Source: Tribonema minus
Lineage: Eukaryota; Sar; Xanthophyceae; Tribonematales; Tribonemataceae
DNA: 64,000 nt
Direction of reading: 5' to 3'
Assembly (NCBI GenBank): GCA_017506865.1
Contig: JAFCMP010000066.1
Coordinates: forward strand, 1-64,000
Below are positions 1 to 16,500 of this stretch, in pieces. The number at the start of each line of letters is the position of its first letter. Position 1 is the first letter of the stretch. A program made the position numbers and the translations under genes. Below the pieces are notes generated by a model. It had not been told where the DNA came from, did not search any database, and saw only the letters and a program-made list of their open reading frames with translations.

Positions 1-1391
1 ACGAGGTCCTGCCGCCTCCGGCGCAGCTGATGCCTCAGTTCCGCCAGTCCGAGAGTCTGAAGCCACGCCGCTAGCAGTGAGCGCTGCCGCAGCTCTGGGA
101 AGGAGGCCAAGGGATGGAAGGCACTGATATTGATATGCACTTTGCCCTGCAATCCATGATCTACCCGCAACAAAGCCACTGCGTTTCCTGCCGCCCTGCA
201 AGCATATTTAAATGACACTCTGGCACTTTCACTGCCCAGAGCGAGCACAGGTGAGACCGAAGGGTGGCAAGCCAGGCGATGGATGGTACGACAACCAGGG
301 GACCGGAACACTGCAAAAGGCAACGTGGGCTCCAACACGCATCTTGAACGAAGCGAATTTGTGTCAGGAAAAATGCTTTGTTGAAAATTGAGCCTTGGAG
401 AAAGCTCACCTACGCCTCTTGCGCCGGCTTAGCCCTGCCGTTCATCACACTGCCAAGTGCGCTGGCCGCTGTGACACTGCCCTTCACGCACTCCCAACAC
501 CTTCCGACTGCGGCTTGGGTTTATTCTCAAAAATTTTATTCATTACAAAGCACCTCAAAAGAAGGAGGAGATAGATTGCCAGGGCCATCTGCCATACGTG
601 CTACAGTTGCAGCGACATCATAGGGCAGGCGCACACTTGCATGCCGCCAGTGTTTCAAGGCTAAGCGTGTGTTGCCCGCCGCCCACAACTTCAAGTGCCG
701 CGTCCTGAACAGGCGACGCTCCGTTTTTTCCTGAAGGAGGACAGACATACAAGTCCATACGGACAGACATACAGATCAGATGGACGAGGATGTAGTGGGG
801 GCGGGTAGATGCCAATTGATGATGCCGTTAAGAAGTGATGCGCGCTGAGGCACGTTCAAGTTGTCACAAGATGCATGTAAATTCTGGGACATCCACAACG
901 TTTGTGCCCTTTTTTAAAAAAGCGATAGTTTTGACAAAAGTCACACAACGGTGCACTTGCATGGATATGGTTGTCAACGCACGCAGCTGTAGCTGCACCG
1001 ATGCCTCCATGCATCGCCCAGGCCGGATATTGCATCTACAAAGTCGCGCGTTTCAGTGCACCTTGAAAGTACTGACCACTCTCAAGGGCATCGCCCTGGC
1101 GCGCTTACGCTCGGCACTGTCGGCAGCGCTCCACATGGCGTACTCTGGCCGTGTCATGACACACATGGCAGAATCCAGGGGGGGGGGGCATATGGAGGAG
1201 GACGTAGGGGAGGCCCCCGAGATGCCATTTGGCGGCGGCGGCGTTTGAGTGGTTGTCGTTGCGACACTTTCAGACTGTCATACGACATGTAGATTCCTTA
1301 CAGCTAGATGCCAATCATCGGCGTTTTTGCGCCTGAGCGAGATTCATAAAAGTATGACCACGCATTGCCAGCTCCTTGGCCTCGAGGTTGC
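1..1391. other. Left flank of retrotransposon, no recognisable gene
   Basis: No exon or gene could be recognised. Short open frames exist on both strands but lack a convincing start, splice signals or family resemblance. A possible acceptor (gagcgctgccgcag, ending about 95) resembles the 3' splice sites of the genes further right, so the first 100 bases could be the edge of an upstream gene. From about 1056 to 1375 lies an inverted copy of a repeat that recurs near 32.8-33.3 kb. Confidence 0.4.
1056..1375 (-). repeat. Dispersed repeat, long copy
   Basis: The reverse complement matches 32811-33090 over about 270 bases with scattered differences. Both contain the tract agtacgccatgtgg, the run cgacaaccactcaaacgccg and the tail aatctacatgtcgt. 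The end facing the LTR carries the ctcgctcag-gcgc head that also occurs as short copies at 32.2, 33.2, 48.3, 62.8 and 63.5 kb. No terminal inverted repeats were seen. The class is unknown. Confidence 0.75.
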
Positions 1392-1754
1392 TGACACGGG
1401 CAGCTGTATGTAAAGTAAACTATTTATGTAGCCTTCTGGCTTATGATGTTTCAACTCTATTATATTCGGCCGTTATTAGGGCCCAGGGCAATTGGTTCGA
1501 ACTAGGGGAACATTGCAGGAAAACCCCTTAACCGGTGAGACCCTTGAGTCTCCCCAGATGAAGGGTTGTGCTTGCAAGGCCTCGGTTCTTGTCAGTCAGC
1601 TAGGATACCACGGCTCCAGGATAGAGACAACTGAAGCCAACAACCATCAACCATCATGGACCCTTCTAAATCAGCCCAAGCCAACGCTGCCCCATCTACA
1701 AGTAAGACAGGCTTAACATAACAAATATAACCCCAACTTTGTTTCATGGCACTC
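1392..1754 (+). repeat. 5' LTR
   Basis: It begins tgacacgggcag and matches 12431-12793 base for base as far as I can read. The last shared bases are tttcatggcactc. If the terminus is the canonical CA, the LTR ends at 1751. It contains the leader ATG (1656) and a splice donor gtaaga at 1702, so both sit inside the terminal repeat. Confidence 0.93.
1656..1701 (+). CDS. Leader exon of Gag, encoded within the 5' LTR
   Basis: The ATG at 1656 opens 15 codons reading MDPSKSAQANAAPST plus one base, then meets a consensus donor, gtaaga. The Gag frame has no ATG near its beginning: its upstream in-frame stop is about 2862 and the first in-frame ATG lies far inside. A clean acceptor, ccatgtgcag, ends at 2910. 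Joining 1701 to 2911 keeps the frame exactly (ACA A + AC TCG GAC), and the spliced frame is 1485 bases, 494 residues plus stop. The same ATG and donor occur in the 3' LTR, which could supply a start to downstream host sequence. The splice is inferred from frame and signals; there is no transcript evidence here. Confidence 0.72.
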
Positions 1755-2910
1755 TTTCATGGCACCTACAGACAGTCCTTACCCACCCCTTGCTTCGCTC
1801 TGGCGGGCCCTGACGAACCAAGCTACACGTGCTCACTAAATATCGTATCGTTAGCCCTCGCTTGCCCTCATCAACACGTGCTCTGGAGCGCCAACGTTGC
1901 TTTCCCGCTCCTTAACGTAGGCCAATTGACTGAATAGGAAATCGTCCAATCATTCAGTATCGGCCCTTCGCGAGGCGGACGCGCTGAGTGTTGGTTACCG
2001 CTCGTACTAACTGGAGGCAGCTACGAGGAGGAATTTAGCGCAGGGGTCGGTGTGCATGCACATTGTAAATATGCGCCTGCATGCCGCATCCTTTGCTTGG
2101 TTGTGCCAGCTGTCGCTACCAAGTGAACACTGAGCAGCAGTGCTTTTATGCTGCGTGAGCCGCCCTAGCTCCAGTGCCTGTGTCGGAGGAATCATGCTTA
2201 GCAGCGGCTCACACACCCGTAGTTGCTTCGCATGACGTCGGCTGTTAACGCTGTGTAATTGAGATGATGAGGCTGACTGTCGAAAGCTGCGGTACGGGTT
2301 CTCCCGTACTGACTTGCACGGGCATTAGTGGGCTTGCGAGGTTACCCATCACCCCCCACCCTTTGTTTCTCGGCACCATCTGATGATGGTGTAATCGAGC
2401 TGATGATCACAGTTCGTCTTGCGAATGCGTCGACGCTCGCTTGAAGTTGCTACCCAGAGCAACTTAGGTAACGGTTGCATACCGGAGGTGTTGGATTGGT
2501 GCAGGCCACAATCAGCTAGGCAACAGCGTTAACTACGACGATAAACAGGTGTGCATATGGTGCTTGCGCAGCAACAACAGTAACTCTGCTCTGCCGCTGC
2601 CGCACTAGAATCAAATGCATTGAGACATAGCATGCCGCGGTTGACACGGTTGCGGGAGCCCGTGGTTCTACTGACTTGCGTGGCTATGATTGGCAACCAC
2701 ATGCATCTCATGGGAGTGCCGGTGTGTTCTGTGCACGTCCCGGGCTGGCTAATTGCACGGGCGAGCGCACAGGGACATCCCATGTTCCAAGAGAGGCTCT
2801 CTTGATGAGTACTATAATAATTTTTGTTCTCCCAGGCTGATGGATACTTATTGTTGGATGGTGAGGGGTATATTTGAGAGACTCAACACATGATCCTGTT
2901 CCATGTGCAG
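1702..2910 (+). other. Leader intron / 5' untranslated region of the retrotransposon
   Basis: This 1.2-kb stretch between the LTR donor (gtaaga) and the Gag acceptor (tgtgcag) has no long frame of credible composition. It must hold the primer-binding site and probably the packaging signal. If spliced out of Gag mRNA, those cis signals would remain only on unspliced genomic RNA, as in retroviruses that separate genome from spliced mRNA. Confidence 0.6.
1760..1775 (+). promoter_or_regulatory. Candidate primer-binding site
   Basis: A TGG-initial stretch (tggcacctacagacag) lies six to nine bases after the 5' LTR. Primer sites complementary to tRNA 3' ends start with TGG. I cannot match it to a specific tRNA, and the tttcatggcac segment here repeats the LTR end, which blurs the boundary. 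Confidence 0.25.
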
Positions 2911-4349
2911 ACTCGGACTCCTCCACGAAAAGAAAGGGGAGTAAGGGCAAGGCTGATGCGGCACCGGCTGACAAGCCGGAGAAGCCCGCGAAGAAGTCCA
3001 AGTCGTCAAAGGAGCCCGCAACCCCTCCTGCGCCGGCCGTTGGCGGTAGCGAGCGAGAGGCGGAGCTCGACGACGAGATATGCGCTGGCGCCGGTGACGA
3101 CGCCAGCTCTGATGCGGGTGAGACTGGTGCCGGTCTAACCGTATCCAGAGCCCGTTATACCCGGCTGCTCGAGCTGTTGGCGGCCTCGCACAAGTCCGGG
3201 GCATCTGCCTCGGCGAGACTGTCTGCAGACGAGGTACAGCTGCAAGAACGTTTCCAGGACCTTGACGCCCAGGCTAAGGTGTTGCGTGGCCTGCGCGATG
3301 CTAGCAAGGAGGGTTCCCCTGAACGTACAATGTACAAGACGGACCTCTATGCGATCACGTACCAGCTTCCACGTCTTAAGGCGAGCATGGAGCAGGTAGA
3401 AGTTGACCGCTGCGCGTACTCACAGAGATTCAGCGCTTTGGAGACTGCTCGCATAGAACTCGACGCAATCATGGATCGCGATCTTGGCGATGCAGATACA
3501 CTGCGCCGTCTCAAGGCGTTCGAGAAGGTGCAGCTGGTGCAGCACTTGCAGGCAGGGCGTTTGGTCCAGGTTGCCCCGCCCCGCGTTGGCGTGGCGGCCT
3601 CGATTCAGATGTCTCATACTGCGCCGTCGAGCACTGGGGTCACCACGACCCCCAGCGACGATGGCAGTGAACCGTCCCGAGCGGACGGCGCTGACGCTGC
3701 TAACAGGGGCAAGGGAGACGTCTATGCGAAGGCTGGTAGGATTGCCGGCGTAGCCGACCTCTCTTCTCGCGTAGGTGTATGTGTCACCAGGCTTGACTCA
3801 CTCACCGCTGCGCTGCGCTCCATGGCAGAGGACGTCAAGGTCCACGCTCTAAGTGTGGCCATAAAGGCGTCGAAGGACAAACCCTTACTTTCAACTGTGC
3901 GCCTACTGTCCCTAGAGGTCGGCGGCAAGCGGAAGGGGTGGGAGCAGCTAACGTACGCAGAACGTTGTGCAGCCATAATTGAGCACTTCAACTCTGAAGC
4001 TGCCCAAGAGAAGGTGTACAATTCTCTACTTCAAGCCAGGCGTCTCCCGAGCGAGAGCCCTGGGGAGTTGGCTCTCCGCGTGCGGAACATGGTTGTACAG
4101 GCAGGTGGTAGCGAAAGTTCTCGTGAGTTTTCTGAAAAGCTTCACTACTTACGCCTCATCTCATCCAAGGAGCGGACGGCCGCTAGGGTTGCACTGGGGA
4201 GGGGCTGGCAGGACGCTGGTCTTGCGAGCATTCAGGAGCACATTGAGCGCACCTGGAACGGGAAAGCCCATGCCGCGAGCAAGGGCGGACCCACGTCGCA
4301 GGATGGTTCTGACCGCGAGTTTGCGCGACGACGCGTCGCAAGCAAGTGA
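2911..4349 (+). CDS. Gag structural protein, main exon
   Basis: It encodes the retrotransposon's nucleocapsid-shell protein. With the LTR leader exon it predicts 494 residues. The N-terminal 90 residues are Lys-, Ala- and Pro-rich and likely disordered. A helical, probably coiled-coil region follows (around 'LQERFQDLDAQAKVLRG' and 'ALETARIELDAIMD'), then a capsid-like helical part with the core 'YAERCAAIIEHF' and 'LRLISSKERTAARVALG', reminiscent of gypsy Gag. No zinc knuckle is present before the stop at 4347. A Cys-Cys-His-Cys finger lies just downstream in the +1 frame, so the nucleocapsid function appears to belong to the Pol frame. An ATG start is absent from this exon; see the LTR leader. 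Translation from a non-ATG codon is the alternative. Confidence 0.88.
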
Positions 4350-7300
4350 CGCGCCGCGCCAGACGCCCTCTGCCTCGCAGATTGCGCGCAAGGAGAGGGC
4401 GCTGGCGGACAAGGAGAGGCGCCTCGCCAAAAAGGAGAAAGCCTTGGAGGTGCGAGCTGCTGCTGTAGCCGCCAAGTCGGCTCCGGCAGCCGCGCCCGCC
4501 AGGCGTGGGCCCCCCGCGCCTGAGCATGACAATTCAGGCATGGTGCAGTTCAACCCGCGTTCTCACTGGGTATGCTTTGACTGCCAGACAACGCTGCCGC
4601 GCGGTATCGCCGTTGACATGCATCGCAACACGCCCAACTGCCCGGCGTTTGATCCTTCCCGCCGCCCCCGCGCCGCACCGTACGGCGGGCCGCGCGGTGA
4701 GCCGCGCGGCGCGCCACCGGCGCATCAGGCGAATCAGTACACGCGGTACGGTCCCCGCCCCCCTTTTCCGCCCCCGGCTGCTATGCCGCAGGCGCCGGTC
4801 GTGGCAGCGGCGGCTGCTGCCGCTGCGCCAACGCCAGCGGAGGCGGACGAGTATCACAAGATGATGGCCTTTGTGGCCTGGCAGAGGGCTCAGGGTGAGT
4901 CTACTTCGCTCGCGCGCGCGCGTGCGGCCCTCTCAGGGGGTGGCACCAGCGGTGCGCGCGCCGCAGTTGAACTTGAACATGCTTTTGGTCAACGTGATAT
5001 GTGCGTCTCCGCGTCCATCGCAACCTCACCACGTGAGCGCGCGCCTGGGCACAATGACGCCGTATTGCTGGCTATGTTGCATCCTTCGTTACCCAGCGTA
5101 CCTTCCCTCGCGGAAGTGTCGCAGTCTACGGCTGATGCTAACATGCAACTTGAAGGTGATAGTGCAAACGATACTCCCCCATCAAACACTGGTTCGCCGC
5201 ATACGGTTACCATACCTAATGCAAGCGAATCGCCTGTCTGTGCTACCGCTGTGACACAGGACCCTGATGCTGGCATGCCAGTGGCGGGTGCAGCGCGGCA
5301 TGTGACACACGCCTCCATATGCTGCGGCATTGGTGGCTGGGACGAGGGTTTAAAGCAGGCAAGTGTGGCAGGCCTTGTGGTGGACACTCAACTTGCTGTT
5401 GACAAGTGCCCCCGCGTGTGTGAGGCGTACCACGAACTGCACCCTGGCACCCACAAGGTTTTAAACGCGTGCCTGAGCGATGATGCAGTAGCCATAGCAC
5501 TGGCTGAACTGGATCCTGACCTCACCACAATGTCCCCCCCGTGCACAGATTATGCAAACGGGAGTGGCGTTGAGGGGGCAGCGGCGGAGGTGACGATCAT
5601 GGCGGTGCGGCTGATTGTGAGGGCGACGCTGCGCTGCTGTGTCATCGAGAATGTGGTATCCATGCTCAGCTCCAAGGCGTGGGCGCGCGCGCAGGCTTTG
5701 CTGCTGGCCCACGGCTACTGTCTCTATGTCAGCAAGCTGAAGGGGTCGGATTTTAGCATAGCGTGCCACCGGCGGCGGGTGTATGTGGTGATTGCGCGGG
5801 CAGGGGTTGGTGTCACGACCGCTATGGCACGGTTCGGGGCGTTAATTAATGCAATTCAGCGTTCATCATTACCCATGTCCGTACGGCGCGTTCTTCGCTG
5901 CCCTGAGCGCTGTTTCTTTTGGAAATCTCGCGTGAAGGGTACCAAGAGTGTGTATGATGCCGATGACTGCATGCCCAGCCCGGTCAGGCGGAACCCTGGA
6001 AAACCACCAGTGGATCTGGCTGACTATGTGGCTGATGATGAACATGATGCTGGCCCTGTGCAAAATGCAAGAGTACTGTCATTGCGTGAAATGGCTGTCC
6101 TGCTCACCTTTACACGTGACTTGCCATGCAAGGCCACCATTGAGGACATGAAGTTATGGCTTGTAAACTTAGTCATGCCACGCATGGCTTTTCACATTGC
6201 CGTTGGGCTTGTGGGATCTGGCATGCTTGATCTTCAAGTAGGCGCCCCTTGTCCCCGGGGTGTCCGCCTGGACCATGACCCTAGTGCACCCCCCCCTGAA
6301 TGGATGCTGCCAGGGTCTGAAGATTACATGCATGTGGCAGAGACTCCTACTGAGCAAGGCAAGGTGCAGGCTAGGGTTGCGGCCATCACCGCACGATACA
6401 GTGCTTGGCAGTATGCAGTCACCCCTGATATGATATGTGCAGAAGGTTTGAACACAGGTCCTTGGTCTTGCACAGCGCTCAATGACTCGTGCAATGACTC
6501 AGACTCTGATGTTGATGAAGTTGAGGAAGAGGAACTTGTGCAGTCACACCCTAGCGGCTCCTCACAAGGTGCATACGCCAGTGAAGACGAGCATCACTTT
6601 GACGACACGGTGCATGAGGCAACTCGCAGGCGTGGGCTAGGCAACCCTCGCGTGAGCGCTGTGGCTGCCAAGCTACACGATGAAGCGAGCCGCTCACAAG
6701 CCGCTGAAGTGGATCCCGCCTCGGTTAGGCCGGGAGAGACAGTTGTGTTGCCAAGTGGCCAGCCCAGCAAGCAGCGGTTTGCCAGGCTGAAGGCACGCGT
6801 GCAGCACCAACGTGGGTTCAAAGAACGAGACTTTGTCTCATTGCTGGACCCCGGCGCTGAGGCAGGCATCATGGCAAAAGCAACGGCGGATGAGCTATCT
6901 CCAGGGACGACATGCCCTCTTGAGAAGGGGGACCATTCAGTCATAGAACTGGCAGACAGTCGCACACAGGTCAAGATCGTAGGCGCTTTGCACCTCACCT
7001 TACGGTTTGGTAACAAGCTGGTGCGGCACAAGTTCTACATTGTGGACTTGGCCATCACCACCATTCTAGGCAGCGACTTCTTTGGCATGTACAAAACCCT
7101 CTTTGACTATGAGGATTTGACATACCAGCCGTTAGGTTCGGACGGCCCAAAGTTGAAGATGCTAGGCAGCGAGGCAGCGCATGGGACGGTGTGGCAAGGC
7201 GCTAAGACCGCAGGGGCTGTGAAAATTAGCCCCAAAGTACCAGCCCCCCCTGCGCATCGTGCCGTGTGCCTGGTGAATGACATACTCATTCCAGCGCACA

Positions 7301-10300
7301 CCGAGGTGAACGTTGAAGTTGTATTACACCCACCAGTGAAAGGGCTGAGCCCCTACTCGGCAGTAATACAACCCGCAATGTCTCAGACGATGTTGAAGTT
7401 GCAAGAAAGGGGCGTAAAGGCCGCCATGTCGGTGGATATTGTTGGCGCGCACAACCCTGTGCGCGCACGCATGGTAAACTTCTCAGACCAGCCGGTGCTT
7501 ATGGCCAGAAACACCTTCATTGGTGAGGCACGGCCGGCTTCGCCTGAGGATATCATTGAGTTGGAGGACGCATCTGCGACCAAGCTTGAGCAACAGCTCT
7601 TGCAGGTGGCTGCAGCTCACCACCCGAACAGCGAGTTCAGCTACGCTGCAACCGCGGCGCTGCGAGCAATTGCATTGGGGAAGGCTGCTGGTACCTATGG
7701 TGCTGCTAATGTGTCTGCTGCTACACCAGGCACAGAACGCACTCGTACCACACAGGAACCCTGCACTGAAGCAGAGCTACGCGAGATGCTACCCACCAAA
7801 GGTGACCTTCATGATATGAAAGCCCCCGATGGTAGGCCATATGCTGAGCATCTGATGGATGTGTTCAACGAATTCGCGAGCGTGTTTGCAAAGGACCCCA
7901 AAAATCCGACAGTGACAAACCTCATGGAGTTTGAGATTGACACTGGTGATGCAATGCCTATCGCTGAAAAGGCTAGGAGGTGGGCGCAAAAGGAGGCAGA
8001 GTACATCATGGAACATGTCAAGGCCATGCATGTGCGCAAGCAAGTGGAGCCTAGCAATGGTCCATGGGCATGCAACCCAGTACTAGCAAGGCAAGGTGAT
8101 AAGATACGATTTTGCGTGGACTTCCGCCGTCTCAACGCTGTCACGAAGCGCGACAGCAGAGGTCTAGGCAACATCGATGATATGGTGCATCAAATGAAGG
8201 GCGCCCGGTACGTGTCCTCAGTCGACATGGCCGCGGGCTACCATCAGATACCATTGCGCGAAAGTGACAAGCCTAAAACGGCATTCCGCACACCTGATGG
8301 AGGGCTATGGCAGTACACAGTGGCACCTTTTGGGCTTGTGAATTTGCCTGCGCAATTCACACGCTTGATGCACAACACTTTGGGCGCTGCCCTAGGTGCA
8401 TATGCCATGGTTTACGTCGACGACGTCTTGATATATGATGACTCCATGGAAACGCACCTTGCGCATATCCGTGACGTCCTATCACGCATCAAAGACGCTG
8501 GTATAAGTGTGGCGCGGCACAAATGCCAATGGTTCCAAACTGAGATCAAGTTCCTTGGTCACATTGTGGGATCAGGGGGCATTCGTCCGGACCCAGAAAA
8601 GGTTCAGGCAATGTCTGACATGAGCGCGCCATTGAATGCCAAAGGGAGAGCTGACAAGGGGCTAGTACGTACAGTACTGGGCTGCTTCAACTATTACCGG
8701 CGGTATGTTCAAGATTTTGCGACATTGGCAGCCCCACTTGTGGAGCTGACCAAAAGTGATGCAGAAATGGTATGGGATAGGCGCAGGCGCGATGCCTTTG
8801 AGGCATTAAAAAAGGCAATGTGCGAGGCAAAACTGGTGTCACACCCAGACTTCTCACTACCATTTGTGCTGTACACTGATGCATCTCAAACTGCCACTAG
8901 TGGCATTTTGACGCAATTTAAACCAGTGCAGGCACTTAGTGGCAAAGAAGCTGCCCCCGCGGCAGGCCGCAGGCGCACAGTAAATGGGAAGGAGGAAATG
9001 GAAGTAGTAGTGGGTTACTTCTCAAAAATTAATTCCACACAAGACGCCAAACTTGGCGCTACCGCGCTAGAGTGCCTGGCCGTCGTGCTGTCACTCAACC
9101 ATCACCGACCTTACGTGTGGGGCAACCCAGTCACAGTGGTTACAGATGCGGCGGCCCTACGATGGCTGCTGACTTTGCAGGACCACAATGGCAAGCTTAT
9201 GCGGTGGGCTATGAGGTTGCTGGAGTACGACATTACCGTACAACACCGACCAGGCCTGGTGAACTCAAATGCAGACGGCCTGTCCAGGCTCCCTATGCAA
9301 AAAGAGTTGGACGCTCCTAGAGAGTATGAGCAAGCAGACGAGCAATGGTCAGACTCAATTCCATGCTTTGCAGCACCACCTTCAGGGGTGAAGTTTGCAC
9401 ATTTTGTGGAAGAGTTTGCGGCGCCCTTAGGGGAGTTTGCTGACCAAGCAAAGGCGACCAACCATGGGTCACATGTTTCTGCAGCGGCAATTAAAATTGC
9501 CAACTTCAGGGGTAAACTGGTGAGCAATGAGTGGGGCACTCCCTTCTCGCTCAATGAGCTAGCCATGAAGAATGCAAGTGAGGACTCAAGCATAGCAGCC
9601 AGGCTGGCTACGCTTACGGTCCAACAGGTCAATGTTTTGCTATGTGAGCTGGACGAGGAAGACTCTTCGTGGACGGATGGAGAGACTGCGTCGATGTCTT
9701 TCAGTCCAGCTACTTTGCATATGTATGCTAATGCATGCATGGATGAGGCGGCAGAGTCTGACTGGGACTCCCCGGCATCTAGCAAGACTGCGAGCATATC
9801 TGCCAAGCGCCGCCGGGTCGCTGCCAACACCGCTGTACCGCTACCAGGGGGCGCCATCCCCCCGCAGCGAACAGAGGGGGTGTCGGAGCCACGCCGTAAG
9901 CGCACACTCAGCAGGCCCAGCCATGAACTGGTCCCTGAACCAGTTGACGGGACCACGCCTGTGCCGGCAATGCTAAGCCGGGAAGCGTTTATTGAGCTCC
10001 AGCAGCGGGACCCCTTGTGTCAGGCAGTGTCACGCACTCTGAGGGACAATATATACCCGCAGGATAGTGAGCTGGCTGCACACTTAATGGTGAACCGTGA
10101 CTGGTACTGTCACGAGGAGGACGGCCTGCTGGTACATCTGGCCACCAGCCACCCCAAACGCGGGATGGTGCTGCGCCAATGGTTTGTACCCGCCGCGCTG
10201 CGCCCTCTGGTTTTGAGGCTGGGGCATGACGACGCCACGGCCGGTCACGCCGGCGCAAGCGCCACGTATGTCCGCCTGTTTGAGCGCTTCTACTGGCCTC

Positions 10301-12177
10301 GCATCAGCAGTGATGTACACACGTATGTCACTAGTTGCATGTCTTGCCTACAGCGCAAGAAGGCTACGACTGGCAAGGCCAAGATGATGTTAACACTGCC
10401 AACTCGCATGTTTCAGCGAGCGCACACTGACATCACCATGACCTCGGTGGTGTCTTCAGAGGGGCACATAGGGCTGCTGACAGTAATTGAGGCACGCTCT
10501 GGATTTTGCTGGCTCATGCCAATTAAAAACAAGGACATGCATACGGTTGCAAGGCTCTTGTACAAGGTAATCCTAGAAATGGGATCCATGTTAGAGGAGC
10601 TGGTGTCGGACCAAGGCAAGGAGTTTCTGAACATTGTGGTGCGCGATTTGTGCTCAATTTTCAGGATCATGAAAATTGACACAAGTGCATACCACCCACA
10701 GGCAAATGGGGTCGCTGAACGGCAAAATGAACGCATCATGGCCATTCTGACTGCCTGGGTTGACAAGACCCAACAGAATTGGCATGAGGGCGTTGAGGCT
10801 GTGCAGTTCGCTCTCCGGTCCACCCCCAGAGAAGAAACAGGCCTGAGCCCTTTCTACTGTGTGTATGGCCGCGAGCCGTCCCTGCCATTCGAAACCTTCC
10901 CTGATGAAGTGCATGGTGGTGACTTACATTCTGAGATTGAACGCAAGCGCGTCAACCTCAAAATGGCACAGAAGGTTATTGATGAGGCATATGGCATCAA
11001 GGCGCGCAGAGTTGACAAGGCTAATGAAGCGGTCAAGCGCGCAATGAAGGTTAAAGTTGGGGACCTGGTCATGATCAAGCAGAAGCCTGCTAAGGGACGC
11101 TCCAGGAAGCTGGACCCTAAATTCATTGGACCATGGGTGGTAGCAGAGGAAACTGGCGGATCTGGGCTGTCATTTTCATGCCGCATGATGGGGCGCCGGG
11201 TGCGTCGCACGCGGGCACATGTGACCAACATGAAGCCTTTTCATTTAAGGCCAAGTGTCATGGAACTTGACAAGCCCTACGCGGTGCTTAATGAGGAAGA
11301 CATTAAGCAACTGCCCAAAGATGGCTGGCTAGAGAGGCTGGTAGACCGCCGGTACAACCCCAATGGTTCGTGGGACTACCGTTGGCTGCTCAGAGATGGT
11401 ACGTTGAGCACATGGAAGACAGAGGACGATGCACTCGAGGTTGCCATGCCTTGGACGCTCGATACTTTTCACGCGCTCTACGAGTTGAAGCATGTGAATG
11501 ACATGCCTGACTACGCCATGAGGATACCACGGGAGGACCGGCGCGTAGCCACGAAAGAGGCTGCGCTGGCCCTATTCCCGAGAGGTACTAAGGTGGTGCG
11601 TGAGGAGCGCGGCGCGCTTAAGCAACAAGTCAAGTACCTATGGGGAACCATCACTGGTTACCTCGCACCGTACTGGCGCGTGCGCTATGAAGATGGTGAC
11701 TGGGAGGACTTCACAAAGCGGCAGTTGCAATGCGCAATTGCGTTGGCTGAAGCCACTCAGCAGCGCGCAAAGGATCTGGGCGTCACGGTTTCTAGCCCCA
11801 AGGTGGTGCAGGAAATGTGCCCTGGGATCCCACCAGACTTTGGTGCGACTTACCATGGTCAGACCGTGAGAGTCAAAAGTGCAACTGGTTGGAGCCGTGC
11901 AGTGCTCAAGGAATACTTGCCCCGGGCCGGCAAGTACACATTTCGCGTGCATTACAACGGGCACCCAGTCACGCGTTTAATCACCGTGCGGCTGAGGCCT
12001 GACTACTACAGCACCGCAGTTACAAGCGAGCAGGCTGAGGCAGACCCTATGTCCAGTTGGAACCTACTGCTGACCACGGTCGCAGAAGAGGTCCCCTTGG
12101 GCCAGGAGTCTGGTCAGGGAGGTTCAGGTTCATACAGTGGCGATGACATGGATTTGAGCGATGGTGATGTGAGGTAG
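3979..12177 (+). CDS. Pol polyprotein with embedded DNA methyltransferase
   Basis: The open frame has 2732 codons; its first part overlaps Gag and real Pol probably begins near 4350. Residues below count from 3979. A zinc finger C-x2-C-x12-H-x5-C lies at 199-221. The DNA methyltransferase spans about 444-745. The retropepsin-like protease has LLDPGAEAG (Asp 957; Pro replaces the usual Thr/Ser) and ILGSDFF near 1030. Reverse transcriptase has FCVDFRRLN and YVDD at 1479. RNase H has Asp 1634, Glu 1698 and Asp 1723. An unassigned 250-residue linker contains a KRRRV basic patch. Integrase has an HHCC finger from 2083 and a catalytic D2151-D2211-35-E2247 triad, followed by a GPY/F-like KFIGPW. Chromodomain-like and Tudor-like segments follow. 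The protein would be processed in virus-like particles to reverse-transcribe and integrate the element. All catalytic acidic residues of RT, RNase H and integrase are present. Confidence 0.96.
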   Translation: MSTSTLKLPKRRCTILYFKPGVSRARALGSWLSACGTWLYRQVVAKVLVSFLKSFTTYASSHPRSGRPLGLHWGGAGRTLVLRAFRSTLSAPGTGKPMPRARADPRRRMVLTASLRDDASQASDAPRQTPSASQIARKERALADKERRLAKKEKALEVRAAAVAAKSAPAAAPARRGPPAPEHDNSGMVQFNPRSHWVCFDCQTTLPRGIAVDMHRNTPNCPAFDPSRRPRAAPYGGPRGEPRGAPPAHQANQYTRYGPRPPFPPPAAMPQAPVVAAAAAAAAPTPAEADEYHKMMAFVAWQRAQGESTSLARARAALSGGGTSGARAAVELEHAFGQRDMCVSASIATSPRERAPGHNDAVLLAMLHPSLPSVPSLAEVSQSTADANMQLEGDSANDTPPSNTGSPHTVTIPNASESPVCATAVTQDPDAGMPVAGAARHVTHASICCGIGGWDEGLKQASVAGLVVDTQLAVDKCPRVCEAYHELHPGTHKVLNACLSDDAVAIALAELDPDLTTMSPPCTDYANGSGVEGAAAEVTIMAVRLIVRATLRCCVIENVVSMLSSKAWARAQALLLAHGYCLYVSKLKGSDFSIACHRRRVYVVIARAGVGVTTAMARFGALINAIQRSSLPMSVRRVLRCPERCFFWKSRVKGTKSVYDADDCMPSPVRRNPGKPPVDLADYVADDEHDAGPVQNARVLSLREMAVLLTFTRDLPCKATIEDMKLWLVNLVMPRMAFHIAVGLVGSGMLDLQVGAPCPRGVRLDHDPSAPPPEWMLPGSEDYMHVAETPTEQGKVQARVAAITARYSAWQYAVTPDMICAEGLNTGPWSCTALNDSCNDSDSDVDEVEEEELVQSHPSGSSQGAYASEDEHHFDDTVHEATRRRGLGNPRVSAVAAKLHDEASRSQAAEVDPASVRPGETVVLPSGQPSKQRFARLKARVQHQRGFKERDFVSLLDPGAEAGIMAKATADELSPGTTCPLEKGDHSVIELADSRTQVKIVGALHLTLRFGNKLVRHKFYIVDLAITTILGSDFFGMYKTLFDYEDLTYQPLGSDGPKLKMLGSEAAHGTVWQGAKTAGAVKISPKVPAPPAHRAVCLVNDILIPAHTEVNVEVVLHPPVKGLSPYSAVIQPAMSQTMLKLQERGVKAAMSVDIVGAHNPVRARMVNFSDQPVLMARNTFIGEARPASPEDIIELEDASATKLEQQLLQVAAAHHPNSEFSYAATAALRAIALGKAAGTYGAANVSAATPGTERTRTTQEPCTEAELREMLPTKGDLHDMKAPDGRPYAEHLMDVFNEFASVFAKDPKNPTVTNLMEFEIDTGDAMPIAEKARRWAQKEAEYIMEHVKAMHVRKQVEPSNGPWACNPVLARQGDKIRFCVDFRRLNAVTKRDSRGLGNIDDMVHQMKGARYVSSVDMAAGYHQIPLRESDKPKTAFRTPDGGLWQYTVAPFGLVNLPAQFTRLMHNTLGAALGAYAMVYVDDVLIYDDSMETHLAHIRDVLSRIKDAGISVARHKCQWFQTEIKFLGHIVGSGGIRPDPEKVQAMSDMSAPLNAKGRADKGLVRTVLGCFNYYRRYVQDFATLAAPLVELTKSDAEMVWDRRRRDAFEALKKAMCEAKLVSHPDFSLPFVLYTDASQTATSGILTQFKPVQALSGKEAAPAAGRRRTVNGKEEMEVVVGYFSKINSTQDAKLGATALECLAVVLSLNHHRPYVWGNPVTVVTDAAALRWLLTLQDHNGKLMRWAMRLLEYDITVQHRPGLVNSNADGLSRLPMQKELDAPREYEQADEQWSDSIPCFAAPPSGVKFAHFVEEFAAPLGEFADQAKATNHGSHVSAAAIKIANFRGKLVSNEWGTPFSLNELAMKNASEDSSIAARLATLTVQQVNVLLCELDEEDSSWTDGETASMSFSPATLHMYANACMDEAAESDWDSPASSKTASISAKRRRVAANTAVPLPGGAIPPQRTEGVSEPRRKRTLSRPSHELVPEPVDGTTPVPAMLSREAFIELQQRDPLCQAVSRTLRDNIYPQDSELAAHLMVNRDWYCHEEDGLLVHLATSHPKRGMVLRQWFVPAALRPLVLRLGHDDATAGHAGASATYVRLFERFYWPRISSDVHTYVTSCMSCLQRKKATTGKAKMMLTLPTRMFQRAHTDITMTSVVSSEGHIGLLTVIEARSGFCWLMPIKNKDMHTVARLLYKVILEMGSMLEELVSDQGKEFLNIVVRDLCSIFRIMKIDTSAYHPQANGVAERQNERIMAILTAWVDKTQQNWHEGVEAVQFALRSTPREETGLSPFYCVYGREPSLPFETFPDEVHGGDLHSEIERKRVNLKMAQKVIDEAYGIKARRVDKANEAVKRAMKVKVGDLVMIKQKPAKGRSRKLDPKFIGPWVVAEETGGSGLSFSCRMMGRRVRRTRAHVTNMKPFHLRPSVMELDKPYAVLNEEDIKQLPKDGWLERLVDRRYNPNGSWDYRWLLRDGTLSTWKTEDDALEVAMPWTLDTFHALYELKHVNDMPDYAMRIPREDRRVATKEAALALFPRGTKVVREERGALKQQVKYLWGTITGYLAPYWRVRYEDGDWEDFTKRQLQCAIALAEATQQRAKDLGVTVSSPKVVQEMCPGIPPDFGATYHGQTVRVKSATGWSRAVLKEYLPRAGKYTFRVHYNGHPVTRLITVRLRPDYYSTAVTSEQAEADPMSSWNLLLTTVAEEVPLGQESGQGGSGSYSGDDMDLSDGDVR
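4270..4349 (+). promoter_or_regulatory. Gag-Pol junction, probable +1 recoding zone
   Basis: The Gag frame ends at tga 4347-4349. The Pol frame is +1 to it and is open back to about 3979, so they overlap by up to 371 bases. A +1 shift near the Gag stop (…agc aag tga c) would fuse them, as in Ty3-type elements. Two in-frame Pol ATGs just before the Gag stop (4270 and about 4303) would also permit termination-reinitiation. A single-base assembly error is the simplest alternative. Confidence 0.5.
5308..6213 (+). other. Cytosine-C5 DNA methyltransferase domain within Pol
   Basis: The conserved motifs occur in order with normal spacing. Motif I is CCGIGGWDEGL (5320-5352, S-adenosylmethionine loop). 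Motif IV is SPPCTDYANGSG (5533, catalytic Cys of the Pro-Cys pair). Motif VI is IENV (5644) and motif VIII is CHRRRVYVV (5764; Gln-x-Arg-x-Arg in the family). Motif IX-like LREMAVLLTF is near 6082 and motif X-like LVNLVMPRMAFHIA near 6157. Between VIII and IX lie about 90 residues, suitable for a target-recognition domain. No PWWP, BAH or other Dnmt N-terminal domain is seen. The expected reaction is methyl transfer to C5 of cytosine in DNA. The frame is intact, so activity is plausible. Whether it modifies the element's own cDNA, host DNA or neither is unknown. Confidence 0.92.
11320..11745 (+). other. Chromodomain-like and Tudor-like tail of integrase
   Basis: After the integrase C-terminal GPW segment, 'WLERLVDRRYN', 'WDYRWLLRDG' and 'STWKTEDDALEV' (11326-11445) follow the pattern of a chromodomain: V-D-x-R, a strand with an aromatic, then W-x-x-E-x-x-L. 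Further on, 'GTKVVREERG', 'WGTITGY', 'YWRVRYEDGDWEDF' (11584-11715) fits a Tudor-type beta barrel. Chromodomains at this position define chromoviruses, where they steer integration to marked chromatin. Both calls rest on pattern alone; the Tudor call is the weaker. Confidence 0.5.
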
Positions 12178-12417: not shown

Positions 12418-12429
12418 GAGAAGGGGGAG
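12418..12429 (+). promoter_or_regulatory. Polypurine tract
   Basis: An all-purine run, gagaagggggag, lies one base before the 3' LTR. This is the expected place for the plus-strand primer of reverse transcription. Confidence 0.88.
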
Positions 12430-12430
12430 T

Positions 12431-12793
12431 TGACACGGGCAGCTGTATGTAAAGTAAACTATTTATGTAGCCTTCTGGCTTATGATGTTTCAACTCTATT
12501 ATATTCGGCCGTTATTAGGGCCCAGGGCAATTGGTTCGAACTAGGGGAACATTGCAGGAAAACCCCTTAACCGGTGAGACCCTTGAGTCTCCCCAGATGA
12601 AGGGTTGTGCTTGCAAGGCCTCGGTTCTTGTCAGTCAGCTAGGATACCACGGCTCCAGGATAGAGACAACTGAAGCCAACAACCATCAACCATCATGGAC
12701 CCTTCTAAATCAGCCCAAGCCAACGCTGCCCCATCTACAAGTAAGACAGGCTTAACATAACAAATATAACCCCAACTTTGTTTCATGGCACTC
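12431..12793 (+). repeat. 3' LTR
   Basis: A direct repeat of 1392-1754, with no difference found by eye. It also carries the leader ATG (12695) and donor gtaaga (12741). Transcripts starting in this LTR could splice into host DNA to the right. Confidence 0.93.
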
Positions 12794-13581
12794 GTTTCAT
12801 TGCTACATTAGCAGCGCGCCAGTTGAAGGCCCAGTGACACATGGCGCAACTGGCACAACTCACCAGCTGACGATGTTCAACTGGCACAACTCACCAGTTG
12901 ACTTCCGAGCCGTCTTGTTGACTCACGAAGTCACTCACATCACAAGCCTTAAGCAATTGCCTAGGGCTACATAGGATTTAAACTGGACTTGGTGACACTT
13001 TTGCCTAGCCCATGTACGTACAAGCATTACACGGCCATACAATATAGCACCTGGCTCCAAACATCAGCCCAGTTGTGCCAAGGCTCTTGGAGTTGAGGTG
13101 CTAGTCCTGACTTTCACAGGCACCGAACACACAACCATGCATGCATGCAGGAAACACCTGAGAAATGCCAAATGCTAAACTGATTCAGAAAGGGGCTTCA
13201 TGCTGCCTGTGCAATGTGAGGCTGCCTGTGCCCAGCGGTTAAGCGCGTGATCACGTGCAGTGCTGGATGCCTGTCACGCACAGGCAGGCATGCAAGGCAG
13301 CACAGCAGTTCGGGCTATCAGTCTTGCATGTGCCATGCACTTTATGCCAAGCAGATATAGAGAGGCAGTTCAGGTATGCGCGCGTGCCTCTTCGGTGGTG
13401 CCGCATCGGAGGAATTTAGTTTGTATAATAAACGTTAGGTTTTGCAACCTTGTTGGCGACACAGCAGCACACGCCCCTCCCTCCCTCTTGCAAGCGACGC
13501 AACGGACCAGGCCTTCCTGCCTAGGGTGCTGTCGCCGCCGGTTCTCAACTGCTTCGCACACAACGCTCGAAGGCAAGCGCA
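12794..13581. other. Intergenic region between retrotransposon and first secreted-protein gene
   Basis: No gene was found. A short tandem pair of caactggcacaactcaccag units lies at about 12847-12904. The last 200 bases should contain the promoter of the gene at 13582; an AT-rich patch (tttagtttgtataataaacg, 13417-13436) is a possible core element but is not diagnostic. Confidence 0.45.
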
Positions 13582-16500
13582 ATGGTGGCTATAAAGTGGG
13601 CTGCGGGGATGTGTTGTAGTGCTTGCATGGCGACGACGGCCATGGCTGGCAACTCGGAGCACTTCGGAGATATCAGCCAGCGCCTGCCGCATTCACAAGG
13701 CACTGACGGCAGCCGCAGGCTTCAAACTGCGGCGCCGACCGCGGCACCAACCGCAACCCCGTCCGTGGTGAGTAGTACGTTAGCTTGCGTTGGTTCAGAG
13801 ATGCGTACATCAGGCTGACCTCGTCTGCCACGTGCATGAACTGTCAACTTGTAGAGCTATCCACTTCACGAGATCAGCAGAAAGCGTGTCCGGACTCTTA
13901 GAGTTTCCTTAATGGCGTGCCTAACATTTCAAACCCCGGGGCAGGTCCAACTGTCTTACCCAAGTGCTCAAGGTTGATTCCCTTGCGGATAACTTTGGGG
14001 TTGTAGCTCTGCATATGCACACAGGGCTTCCAGCGGTGCTCCGCTGCTTGCAAGCACATCAGATTTGCAGGGGCATGTACCCCTAGAATCTCAACGTCCT
14101 GTTGTGCCTGCGCTGGATCGGAAACGAAGACGCACTTGCTCATGCTCACAAGACTTTCATCTGCATAAGCGAGCATTCTCTTGGCTTATTACGCCTGGCA
14201 TCAGTTCAGATAGTGATGTCAGTGAAGGCTGGGTCACGATAGCCAGTTGGTGGTTCATGGGTGTCCGGTACTTGCAGCCGTTGAGATCACTCCACGAGCA
14301 GCACACGCTGTGCTGCTGAGTAGGGTGGGCCTTGTTTGAGTGCAGTGGAATCTAGTGCGGTGTTTACCGATTGCTTAGCTGTCTCCAGGGGATTGGCTTA
14401 CATGCTGCCGGTCGTCAGACTTTCGAAAATTGCACTAAATTTTGTGCACCTGTGCCTGTCATCGGTCCCTGTCACAGGCGCCTACGGCATTTACATCAGC
14501 ACCATCGTCGGCGCCAACCGCGGTAAGCTCAATTTGCTGTACGTGTTGACGCGCAGGCATTGCAGTAAGTAGTCGGTGATCTCACAGACCACATGCCGCA
14601 CAAAATTACACTTGGCCAGATGACTGTCCTGAGCACTGCTGCTGGTGCGTTGTGTTGAAGTTGCAGCGTGAAATGTACGTGACAAGCCCCAAGTCATACC
14701 TTGGCGACCACCAAATGCCTGTCAACAGGGCTTGCTCCAGCGTTGCCGTGAATCACCGACAATCAACTCGCATGCATGTCACAATCACCCAATGGATCGG
14801 GTCCGTGCTGCTGCAATTGCCAGCGCTGTAGCCCGCAAGCAGCATGTGACCGCTGTTCATACCTGCCAACGTGCAGCCCACCGCATTACTGAGCAGCGCT
14901 GCCCCCCCCCCCCCCCCACCCCCCTGCCTTCATCGTCTCGCGTCACCGCTCGTCAGACTTGCCCCCCCCCACCCACCCACCCCCCGTGTTGTGCGTCCAC
15001 GCATCGCCTGCCGCCCCTCTGCACACCCGTCCGCCCTTCCTCACTCCCCCCGCGATGCGTGTGCGCGCATCGTGCTCACGCTCAGCAGACTTGCAGCTGC
15101 GTAAGCGAGCATTCTCTTGGCTTGCTACGCCTATCACCAGTGCATATGAAGTGACAGCAGTGAAGGCTGGTTGACGACTGTCAGTGCGTGGTTCATGGGT
15201 CCCTGCACTTGCAGCCGTTGAGATCACTCAACGAGCAGCAGACTGTGCCGTGCTGCTGAGCAGGGCGTGCGTTGTTTGAGTGCAGTGGAATCTAATGCAA
15301 ATGAAGATATTGAGTAGCTTTCTCCGTGGGGTGGCTTACCATGCTGCTGGCCAGCCTTCCCAAAGATTGCCATTGAGCGACACGCACCTGTGCCTCTCAT
15401 CGGTCCATGTCGCAGGCGCCTACGGCATTTTACACATCAGCACCTTCGTCGGCGCCAACCGCGGTAAGCTGAAGTTGCTGTATGTTTCTACGTGCAGGCA
15501 TTGCAGTAGGTCAGTGATCTCACAGATTACTCGCAGCAAAAAAATACAGGTGCCTGAGCACTGCTGCTGGTGCGTTGTGTTGATGTTGCAACATCAAACG
15601 CAGGTGACAAGCCCCGCATCATACCTTGGCGACGAGCAAACGCTGCTGACTTGCATCAAGCAGGGCTTGTATGTTTCTGCACATGCTCCGTGTTTTGCAC
15701 TTAGCTAAAGGGAGGCTGGCTGTCGGGTGATGTCATGGCTCAGCACCCGCCAGCCACATCAGTTTCGGGGTGCATGCTACAGGGATGACATTGAGCATTG
15801 TTGAGCGCTTCACATTGCATCAATTTGACAGACATCGGACTATCCAGCATGACACAACTCATCCGGTCTCTGCGCGCCCTCAGCGACTATCATCACAAGT
15901 ACAGCTTGGTGATGACATTCGCTTCCGCAGCACGCTGACTTGGCTGCGCGAGTGTCGTTTGAGGATTTGGCAGACTCAGCATCAAGACAGTCTTGACTCA
16001 CGAGCTCAGAAGGGCAAGCTCGCTCTCCAGCATTGCCATGAATTATCAACAAGCGACTTGCTTGTATATTATAATCAACCAACGAATCAGGTCTGTGCTG
16101 CAGTATTCGCCAGCACTGTAGCAAACAATCACCACGTGTGACCGCTGTACCTATCAGCATGCTGGCCAATGAAATGCTGAGCAGCGCTGCCCCCCCCCCC
16201 CCCCTCCCCCCCCATCGCCACTCATGATGCCGCCCCCCCCCACACCCCCCTGTGTTGTGTGTCCACGCAGCGCCTGTTACCCCTCTACGCACCCGTCCGC
16301 CCTTCCACACTCCCCCATGATTATGGTTGCACGAAAACGTATTTGACCACACAAGTACGGCGTATTTGGGACGTTTGGCAACCAAGCCTTAGGAATACAT
16401 CTTGAGCAAACCTTGACATGATAACATGCTGATCGAAGGGCGTATTCGTGGGGTATGTGGTGAGTCTGCTTGATTCCGACCATACAGCCCACCTCGAAAG

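Follow-up and report, generated by a model that had tools for sequence, protein, structure and literature searches.

A Ty3/gypsy retrotransposon of Tribonema minus with a C5-cytosine methyltransferase in its Pol frame, and related families with two domain orders

Retrotransposons that carry their own cytosine methyltransferases were described by de Mendoza et al. in 2018, who reported LINE and DIRS elements with DNMTs from Symbiodinium and a DNMT3-bearing gypsy element from Klebsormidium, with evidence of purifying selection, and found that the DNMTs of SymbioDIRS act on CpG in yeast (PMC5890265). The available passage of a later review lists retrotransposons of the gypsy and DIRS clades with adenine or cytosine methylases as known in stramenopiles, among other groups (PMC6338049). 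Here we analyze a 64,000-nucleotide stretch (the window) that forms positions 1 to 64,000 of contig JAFCMP010000066.1 (GCA_017506865.1) from Tribonema minus, a xanthophyte of the PX clade whose assembled genome comprises 158.2 Mb in 554 contigs. The window contains a young Ty3/gypsy long terminal repeat (LTR) retrotransposon whose Pol frame includes a complete C5-cytosine DNA methyltransferase (MTase) between the gag finger and the protease (Table 1), and this element is one of a diversified lineage of gypsy elements with MTases within a single genome.

Identification of the MTase and recognition of its conservation are the firmest of our conclusions, and we regard them as close to certain. 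A first-pass annotation of the window, made from the sequence alone, had placed a C5-MTase at 5308-6213, with its motifs in order, inside a gypsy element. The profile search puts the segment in this family: PF00145 scores 43.9 bits in the whole of Pol and 52.0 bits for the domain alone, against a curated cut-off of 22, and the limits now extend to those given in Table 1. Motifs I (5311), IV (PPC, 5530), VI (ENV, 5644), VIII (RRR, 5764), IX (6067) and X (6157) follow one another as claimed, and the flanking gypsy domains are recognized by PF00078, PF17917, PF17921 and PF00665. Comparisons that start from the single sequence are weak, with relatives found in the PDB only at E 0.027 and the NCBI dcm model TIGR00675 matching at E 1.3e-9, yet with 38.2 bits against a cut-off of 100.65. 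The assignment is settled nonetheless because it follows from a profile of seven families and from the fold, which covers the catalytic and target-recognition lobes and has a core in common with DNMT2. Judged by its sequence, the MTase is not a DNMT2; the CFT motif of that class is not seen, and the reading of the domain as DNMT2 is rejected by a tree in which the DNMT2 rows (P0009 and the T. minus locus L034) pair with each other (100/99, starred) outside the window's clade. It is probably not a DNMT3 either, since motif IV of DNMT3 reads SPC where the window has PPC, although the tree contained no DNMT3 sequence. No DNMT3 chain occurs among the 39 PDB sequences found with the seven-family profile at E up to 1, and none is among the best 50 structural matches listed, which by itself excludes nothing.

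The MTase is not peculiar to the window element but is a feature of a multi-family group with two domain orders. A six-frame search of the genome with the window's domain gave at least 113 matches (458 first-look candidates, 112 scored), and 106 of the 113 listed are free of stops. Thirty-one listed rows, the window's own included, match at 98-100% amino-acid identity across 330 or more of the 366 residues and are spread over many contigs; the others fall at 72-77%, 64-65%, 47-50% and 42-44%, and some rows are partial or intermediate. These 31 rows, and an LTR pair whose sole difference is one single-base indel, show that the window's gypsy family has recently been active. The first-pass annotation had described matching LTRs and an intact polyprotein and had suggested a currently or recently active copy. 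The LTRs and the 2732-residue Pol frame agree with this description, but the window copy itself is not intact because gag and pol lie in different frames, and recent activity is a property of the family. Its presumed nucleocapsid finger is a Cys/His finger whose spacing departs from that of a classical CCHC knuckle. A single open frame of 3104 amino acids, a length that fits gag plus pol, is present in 8 of the 31 rows. Of 29 loci evaluated (L026 lies outside this count), 22 have a frame that stays open as far as the locus end, about 1.5 kb 5′ of the MTase, and an earlier stop occurs in the window copy and six others. From these frame lengths, gag and pol appear to form one continuous frame in sister copies.

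Eight further families (L061-L068, 7 kb each) have an MTase, reverse transcriptase (RT), RNase H and integrase zinc domain over cut-off in one open frame, with the integrase core over cut-off in three and under it in five. The MTase precedes the protease in seven families (the window's, L061-L064, L066 and L068) and follows it in two (L065 and L067), and the latter order is also found in an environmental protein, P0023. Identity in the RT-RNase H region is 55-92% within the MTase-first group and 83% within the protease-first group, as opposed to 30-34% between them, and a profile comparison of the MTases from the two groups gives 26% identity (probability 99.3). A tree of 43 rows joins, with moderate support, the nine families, four other MTase types of T. 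minus and nine proteins of environmental origin in one 22-row clade (92/91, not starred). Closest to this clade is the bacterial row P0035 (92/90), and the remaining bacterial rows lie outside. Two of the environmental proteins in the clade are not known as retroelements. In this tree, which contains no DNMT1, 3, 5 or 6 sequence, DNMT2 stands apart. On balance we favor the view that two anciently separated gypsy lineages in one xanthophyte genome carry a C5-MTase before or after the protease, through two or more captures, or a single capture plus a transfer between elements, and then radiated into many families, several of them young. To our knowledge this would be the largest radiation of MTase-bearing LTR retrotransposons.

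A word search for homologues of the Pol region examined 2615 candidates and gave no match at E up to 0.001. Scans by short exact patterns confirmed no relatives in viral contigs (queries A1, P0006 and A2) and none in prokaryote genome contigs (query, the window domain); such patterns can miss distant sequences, and a distant donor may yet exist. Among relatives that show no visible retroelement domains, the nearest found are the environmental proteins P0005 and P0006, MTases of 412-423 amino acids with a C-terminal extension and about 30% identity to the window domain. A homologous protein, P0007, corresponds to JKP88DRAFT_250746 of T. minus. The genome also encodes C5-MTases of other kinds: among 123 matches listed in a PF00145 search, all over cut-off (378 candidates, 123 scored), at least four (L031-L034) are not of the retrotransposon type. 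L031 (C223:937874), L032 (C223:702740) and L033 (C181:39962) are uninterrupted open reading frames (ORFs) of 367-390 amino acids with C5-MTase motifs, the best match of L031 being M.HhaI, and L034 (C523:358815-359333) is a DNMT2-like ORF that joins a fungal DNMT2 in the tree.

Selection has conserved the MTase domain, and MTase distances track those of RT (Mantel r 0.89 across seven families, as high in 9 of 5040 permutations). Between the window family and family B, ratios of nonsynonymous to synonymous substitution (dN/dS) are 0.139 for the MTase, 0.026 for RT, 0.051 for RT-C/RNase H, 0.067 for the integrase, 0.122 for the protease-RT segment and 0.53 for gag, and over the six pairs computed the MTase ranges from 0.14 to 0.31 and RT, where computable, from 0.03 to 0.07; these ratios are approximate because dS is near 1 or more, and many segments of the pairs other than window/B are saturated. 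All 64 loci of non-host type retain the catalytic Cys, ENV and RxR (L001-L068 minus L031-L034; 63 by pattern match, L025 by eye), so that the loss of motif IV or VI residues contemplated in the first-pass annotation was not found. These loci represent 62 places, as two were read twice (L063/L049 and L065/L042), and include nine (L035-L037 and L043-L048) whose RT context was not read. Motif IV reads SSC (L068), TPC (L064) and APC (L066 and L059) in place of PPC, always with the Cys, and the glycines of motif I that bind S-adenosylmethionine (SAM) are invariant in seven families. Residues of the C-terminal half are also among the columns invariant in these families, down to 30% identity, which suggests that one target has been kept. 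Loci L035-L037 and L043-L048 encode additional kinds of C5-MTase, with open frames between 342 and 1204 amino acids long, and perhaps these too lie in mobile elements.

Table 1. Features of the MTase-bearing element and their positions in the window
Feature	Position	Strand	Evidence or remark
Target-site duplication TTGC, left	1388..1391	n/a	From flanks; matches right copy at 12800-12803
5′ LTR, TG...CA, 368 nt	1392..1759	+	363 nt exactly matching 3′ LTR, then TTTCA past one-base indel
Putative primer-binding site	1760..1775	+	Starts TGG, abuts 5′ LTR
gag ORF, 491 aa	2874..4349	+	Frame differs from pol in window copy
pol ORF, 2732 aa open frame	3979..12177	+	Spans finger, MTase, protease, RT, RNase H, integrase
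Cys/His finger C-x2-C-x12-H-x5-C, non-canonical	4573..4641	+	Pattern C-x2-C...H...C in 6 of 7 aligned families
C5-cytosine DNA methyltransferase domain, complete	5296..6234	+	PF00145
Motif IV MSPPCTDY with catalytic Cys	5530..5553	+	Cys invariant, 7 families
Motif VI IENVVSM	5644..5664	+	ENV invariant, 7 families
Aspartic protease, active site D-P-G	6823..7083	+	PF13975 E 0.012, under Pfam cut-off; conserved columns
Reverse transcriptase, YVDD	8098..8568	+	PF00078 E 4e-29; best PDB match Ty3 RT, E 8e-56
RNase H	8848..9228	+	PF17917 E 1.4e-21
Integrase zinc-binding domain	10186..10362	+	PF17921 E 4.6e-19
Integrase core, D,D-35-E	10402..10737	+	PF00665 E 1.1e-9; pol residues D2151, D2211, E2247
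C-terminal Tudor-like reader domain	11632..11730	+	PF21743 E 2.5e-5 on C-terminal piece; 24.4 bits, below cut-off 27.2
Polypurine tract GAGAAGGGGGAG	12418..12429	+	Sequence ahead of 3′ LTR
3′ LTR, 369 nt	12431..12799	+	Pairs with 5′ LTR
Target-site duplication TTGC, right	12800..12803	n/a	From flanks

The anatomy of the window copy is that of a Ty3/gypsy element, with direct TG...CA LTRs, a 4-bp target-site duplication, a primer-binding site and a polypurine tract, and with the domains ordered protease, RT, RNase H and integrase, including a gypsy-type RT and a D,D-35-E integrase; the protease match lies below the Pfam cut-off, and the columns around its variant active-site triad are conserved across the aligned families. 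The usual active site of aspartic proteases is D-[ST]-G. The triad reads D-P-G in the window (6841-6858) and family B, D-S-G in family C, D-C-G in D and H, and D-N-G in E and L. No Pfam family exceeds its cut-off in gag, and tRNA and Rfam scans of the window found nothing. Just 3′ of the element, at 14137-15643, the window contains diverged direct repeats that are 68-91 nt long, share 82-88% identity and lie at a spacing of 925-941 nt. Elsewhere in the genome, L069 (C334:714136) and L070 (C112:516888) are short rbcL fragments, which we take to be of the red type and which may represent plastid DNA inserted into the nucleus. A search with an 18S pattern gave no hit.

We propose, with a probability of roughly 0.6, that the MTase is packaged and marks the element's own complementary DNA (cDNA). 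The presence of the domain, its conservation, its frame and the recent spread of the family are shown; packaging, activity, target and benefit are inferred. Sister copies appear to encode Gag-MTase-Pol in a single frame, and for this reason the MTase would enter every virus-like particle, where the protease could release or expose it. The enzyme would then act in the particle or on fresh cDNA, methylating cytosines, most likely at CpG, and new insertions would arrive pre-marked and resemble the methylated DNA of the host. They might thereby escape sensing of unmethylated DNA and soon fall silent, with less damage to the host and persistence of the family. In favor of this view, the analogous DNMTs of SymbioDIRS act on CpG in yeast (PMC5890265), and T. 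minus has a methylation system of its own, with DNMT5, HELLS and a putative CDCA7-like protein according to the available text of PMC10538959. Private transitions among element copies are consistent with CpG marks: they affect 23 of 573 CpG sites and 27 of 1787 other C/G sites in family A (30 loci), 23 of 460 and 27 of 1482 in family D (11 loci), and 46 of 1033 and 54 of 3269 when the two are pooled (odds ratio 2.8, p 1.2e-6, the sites not being fully independent). This excess suggests 5-methylcytosine at CpG in the element copies but does not name the enzyme.

Several observations weigh against this proposal. The nearest published analogue, KnitGypsy-Dnmt3, was inactive in yeast, a result that its authors call inconclusive (PMC5890265). 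Four copies dominate the variants, with 75 of 107 in family A coming from L025, L030 and L026 and 83 of 105 in family D from L060, and family F (5 loci), with only 9 private variants, shows nothing and offers too few to tell. The CpG-transition excess has no MTase-free element as a control, and host DNMTs could be its cause. The observed/expected ratio of CpG is 0.80 in the whole element and 0.82 in its surroundings, and 0.40 in the LTR alone. The MTase also evolves faster than RT by dN/dS, and the best PDB matches of the seven-family profile are DNMT2 tRNA methyltransferases (6fdf, E 1.7e-9).

These last two points bear directly on other explanations. We give DNA, in the form of cDNA, an even chance of being the main substrate. 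RNA is possible because the profile finds tRNA methyltransferases first, and the enzyme would then modify and stabilize the primer tRNA or the packaged genomic RNA; a DNMT2 chain also ranks second in Foldseek, behind plant MET1, and de Mendoza et al. considered RNA methylation for SymbioLINE-Dnmt (PMC5890265). We nevertheless consider an RNA target unlikely; it and action on the host are the two rivals still in play. Rather less probable is that freed MTase is directed at the host, where it would alter chromatin or rival host DNMTs and, with a C-terminal Tudor-like or chromodomain reader, open or mark integration sites. The open frames of many listed copies would suit such a role, as would reader-like C-terminal matches in both architectures, both below cut-off (24.4 against 27.2 bits for the Tudor-like match in the window, 23.2 against 25.1 for the chromodomain-like match at the C-terminus of L067), but an MTase bound to Gag-Pol would be expected to stay mostly in cytoplasmic particles, and the CpG composition of the surroundings is not unusual.

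It is also conceivable that the fold is kept as a structural passenger, for particle assembly or nucleic-acid binding, and that catalysis is dispensable. The higher dN/dS of the MTase relative to RT and the SSC motif of L068 are in line with this idea, yet retention of the catalytic Cys, ENV and RxR in every non-host locus, even between families at 30% identity, and of the SAM-binding glycines argues against it, and we judge a purely structural role improbable. Mis-assembly of an MTase gene into one element, or a chance fusion, is favored only by the draft state of the assembly, and we assign it a negligible likelihood; it is already refuted by near-identical copies on many contigs, by like fusions in eight further families, and by environmental proteins with close MTase domains, one of which (P0023) has a protease ahead of it. 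Marking of cDNA by a packaged MTase stands as the best explanation as a whole.

An element that carries its own methylation writer presents a paradox, because cytosine methylation is a main route by which hosts silence such elements. Some thirty near-identical copies and several older families in a 158-Mb genome provide natural replicates for asking whether the MTase marks its own cDNA. Brown algae are reported, in the available text of PMC13076208, to have lost DNA methylation, which their outgroup Schizocladia keeps; the window case therefore bears on the coevolution of methylation systems and mobile elements in this region of the tree. If two gypsy lineages do carry the MTase, methylation delivered by retroelements becomes testable in a small algal genome related to the brown algae.

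How does this element compare with those already described? Like the window element, KnitGypsy-Dnmt3 of Klebsormidium nitens contains, within a Pol ORF of the Ty3/gypsy type, a C5-MTase that is under purifying selection (PMC5890265), but it carries a DNMT3-class enzyme and repeats described as DIRS-like, whereas the window element has ordinary LTRs, another host, a PPC motif IV and relatives with two domain orders. SymbioDIRS-Dnmt3 and SymbioLINE-Dnmt resemble our case in the abundance of MTase-bearing retrotransposons and in the congruence of MTase and RT trees, and SymbioDIRS also in having two domain orders, of the DIRS type, within one genome (PMC5890265). The Symbiodinium elements use a DIRS tyrosine recombinase or a LINE endonuclease in place of a DDE integrase and LTRs; assignment of the window element to the SymbioDIRS type, with tyrosine recombinase and split repeats, is ruled out by its PF00665 DDE integrase and ordinary LTRs. 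DNMT2/TRDMT1, although the best PDB profile match and of the same core fold, occupies a separate branch of the tree. Other mobile elements bear methylases of another kind and belong to other element classes, namely DIRS elements with a Dam-like adenine methylase and the DNA transposon Sola1-1_Ec32 with a ParB-methyltransferase, as mentioned in PMC5890265 and in the available part of PMC12477816. The latter describes Gypsy-10_Ec32 of Ectocarpus, a gypsy element whose C-terminal Tudor domain recalls the Tudor-like match of the window element and for which a T. minus homologue is mentioned; it makes no mention of a C5-MTase there.

Because the review cited above places methylase retrotransposons in stramenopiles, the host alone is no ground for a claim of novelty; its available passage lumps both types of methylase, names no stramenopile C5-MTase gypsy element, and cites de Mendoza et al. 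for the C5 type (PMC6338049). In the text available from open-licence PMC papers, no C5-MTase gypsy element is named in a xanthophyte. The precedents in dinoflagellates and a charophyte to which the first-pass annotation had pointed are real (PMC5890265), and the window case is of the same kind, differing from them in its host, in the structure of the element, probably in the class of its MTase, and in that gypsy elements of two domain orders occur side by side.
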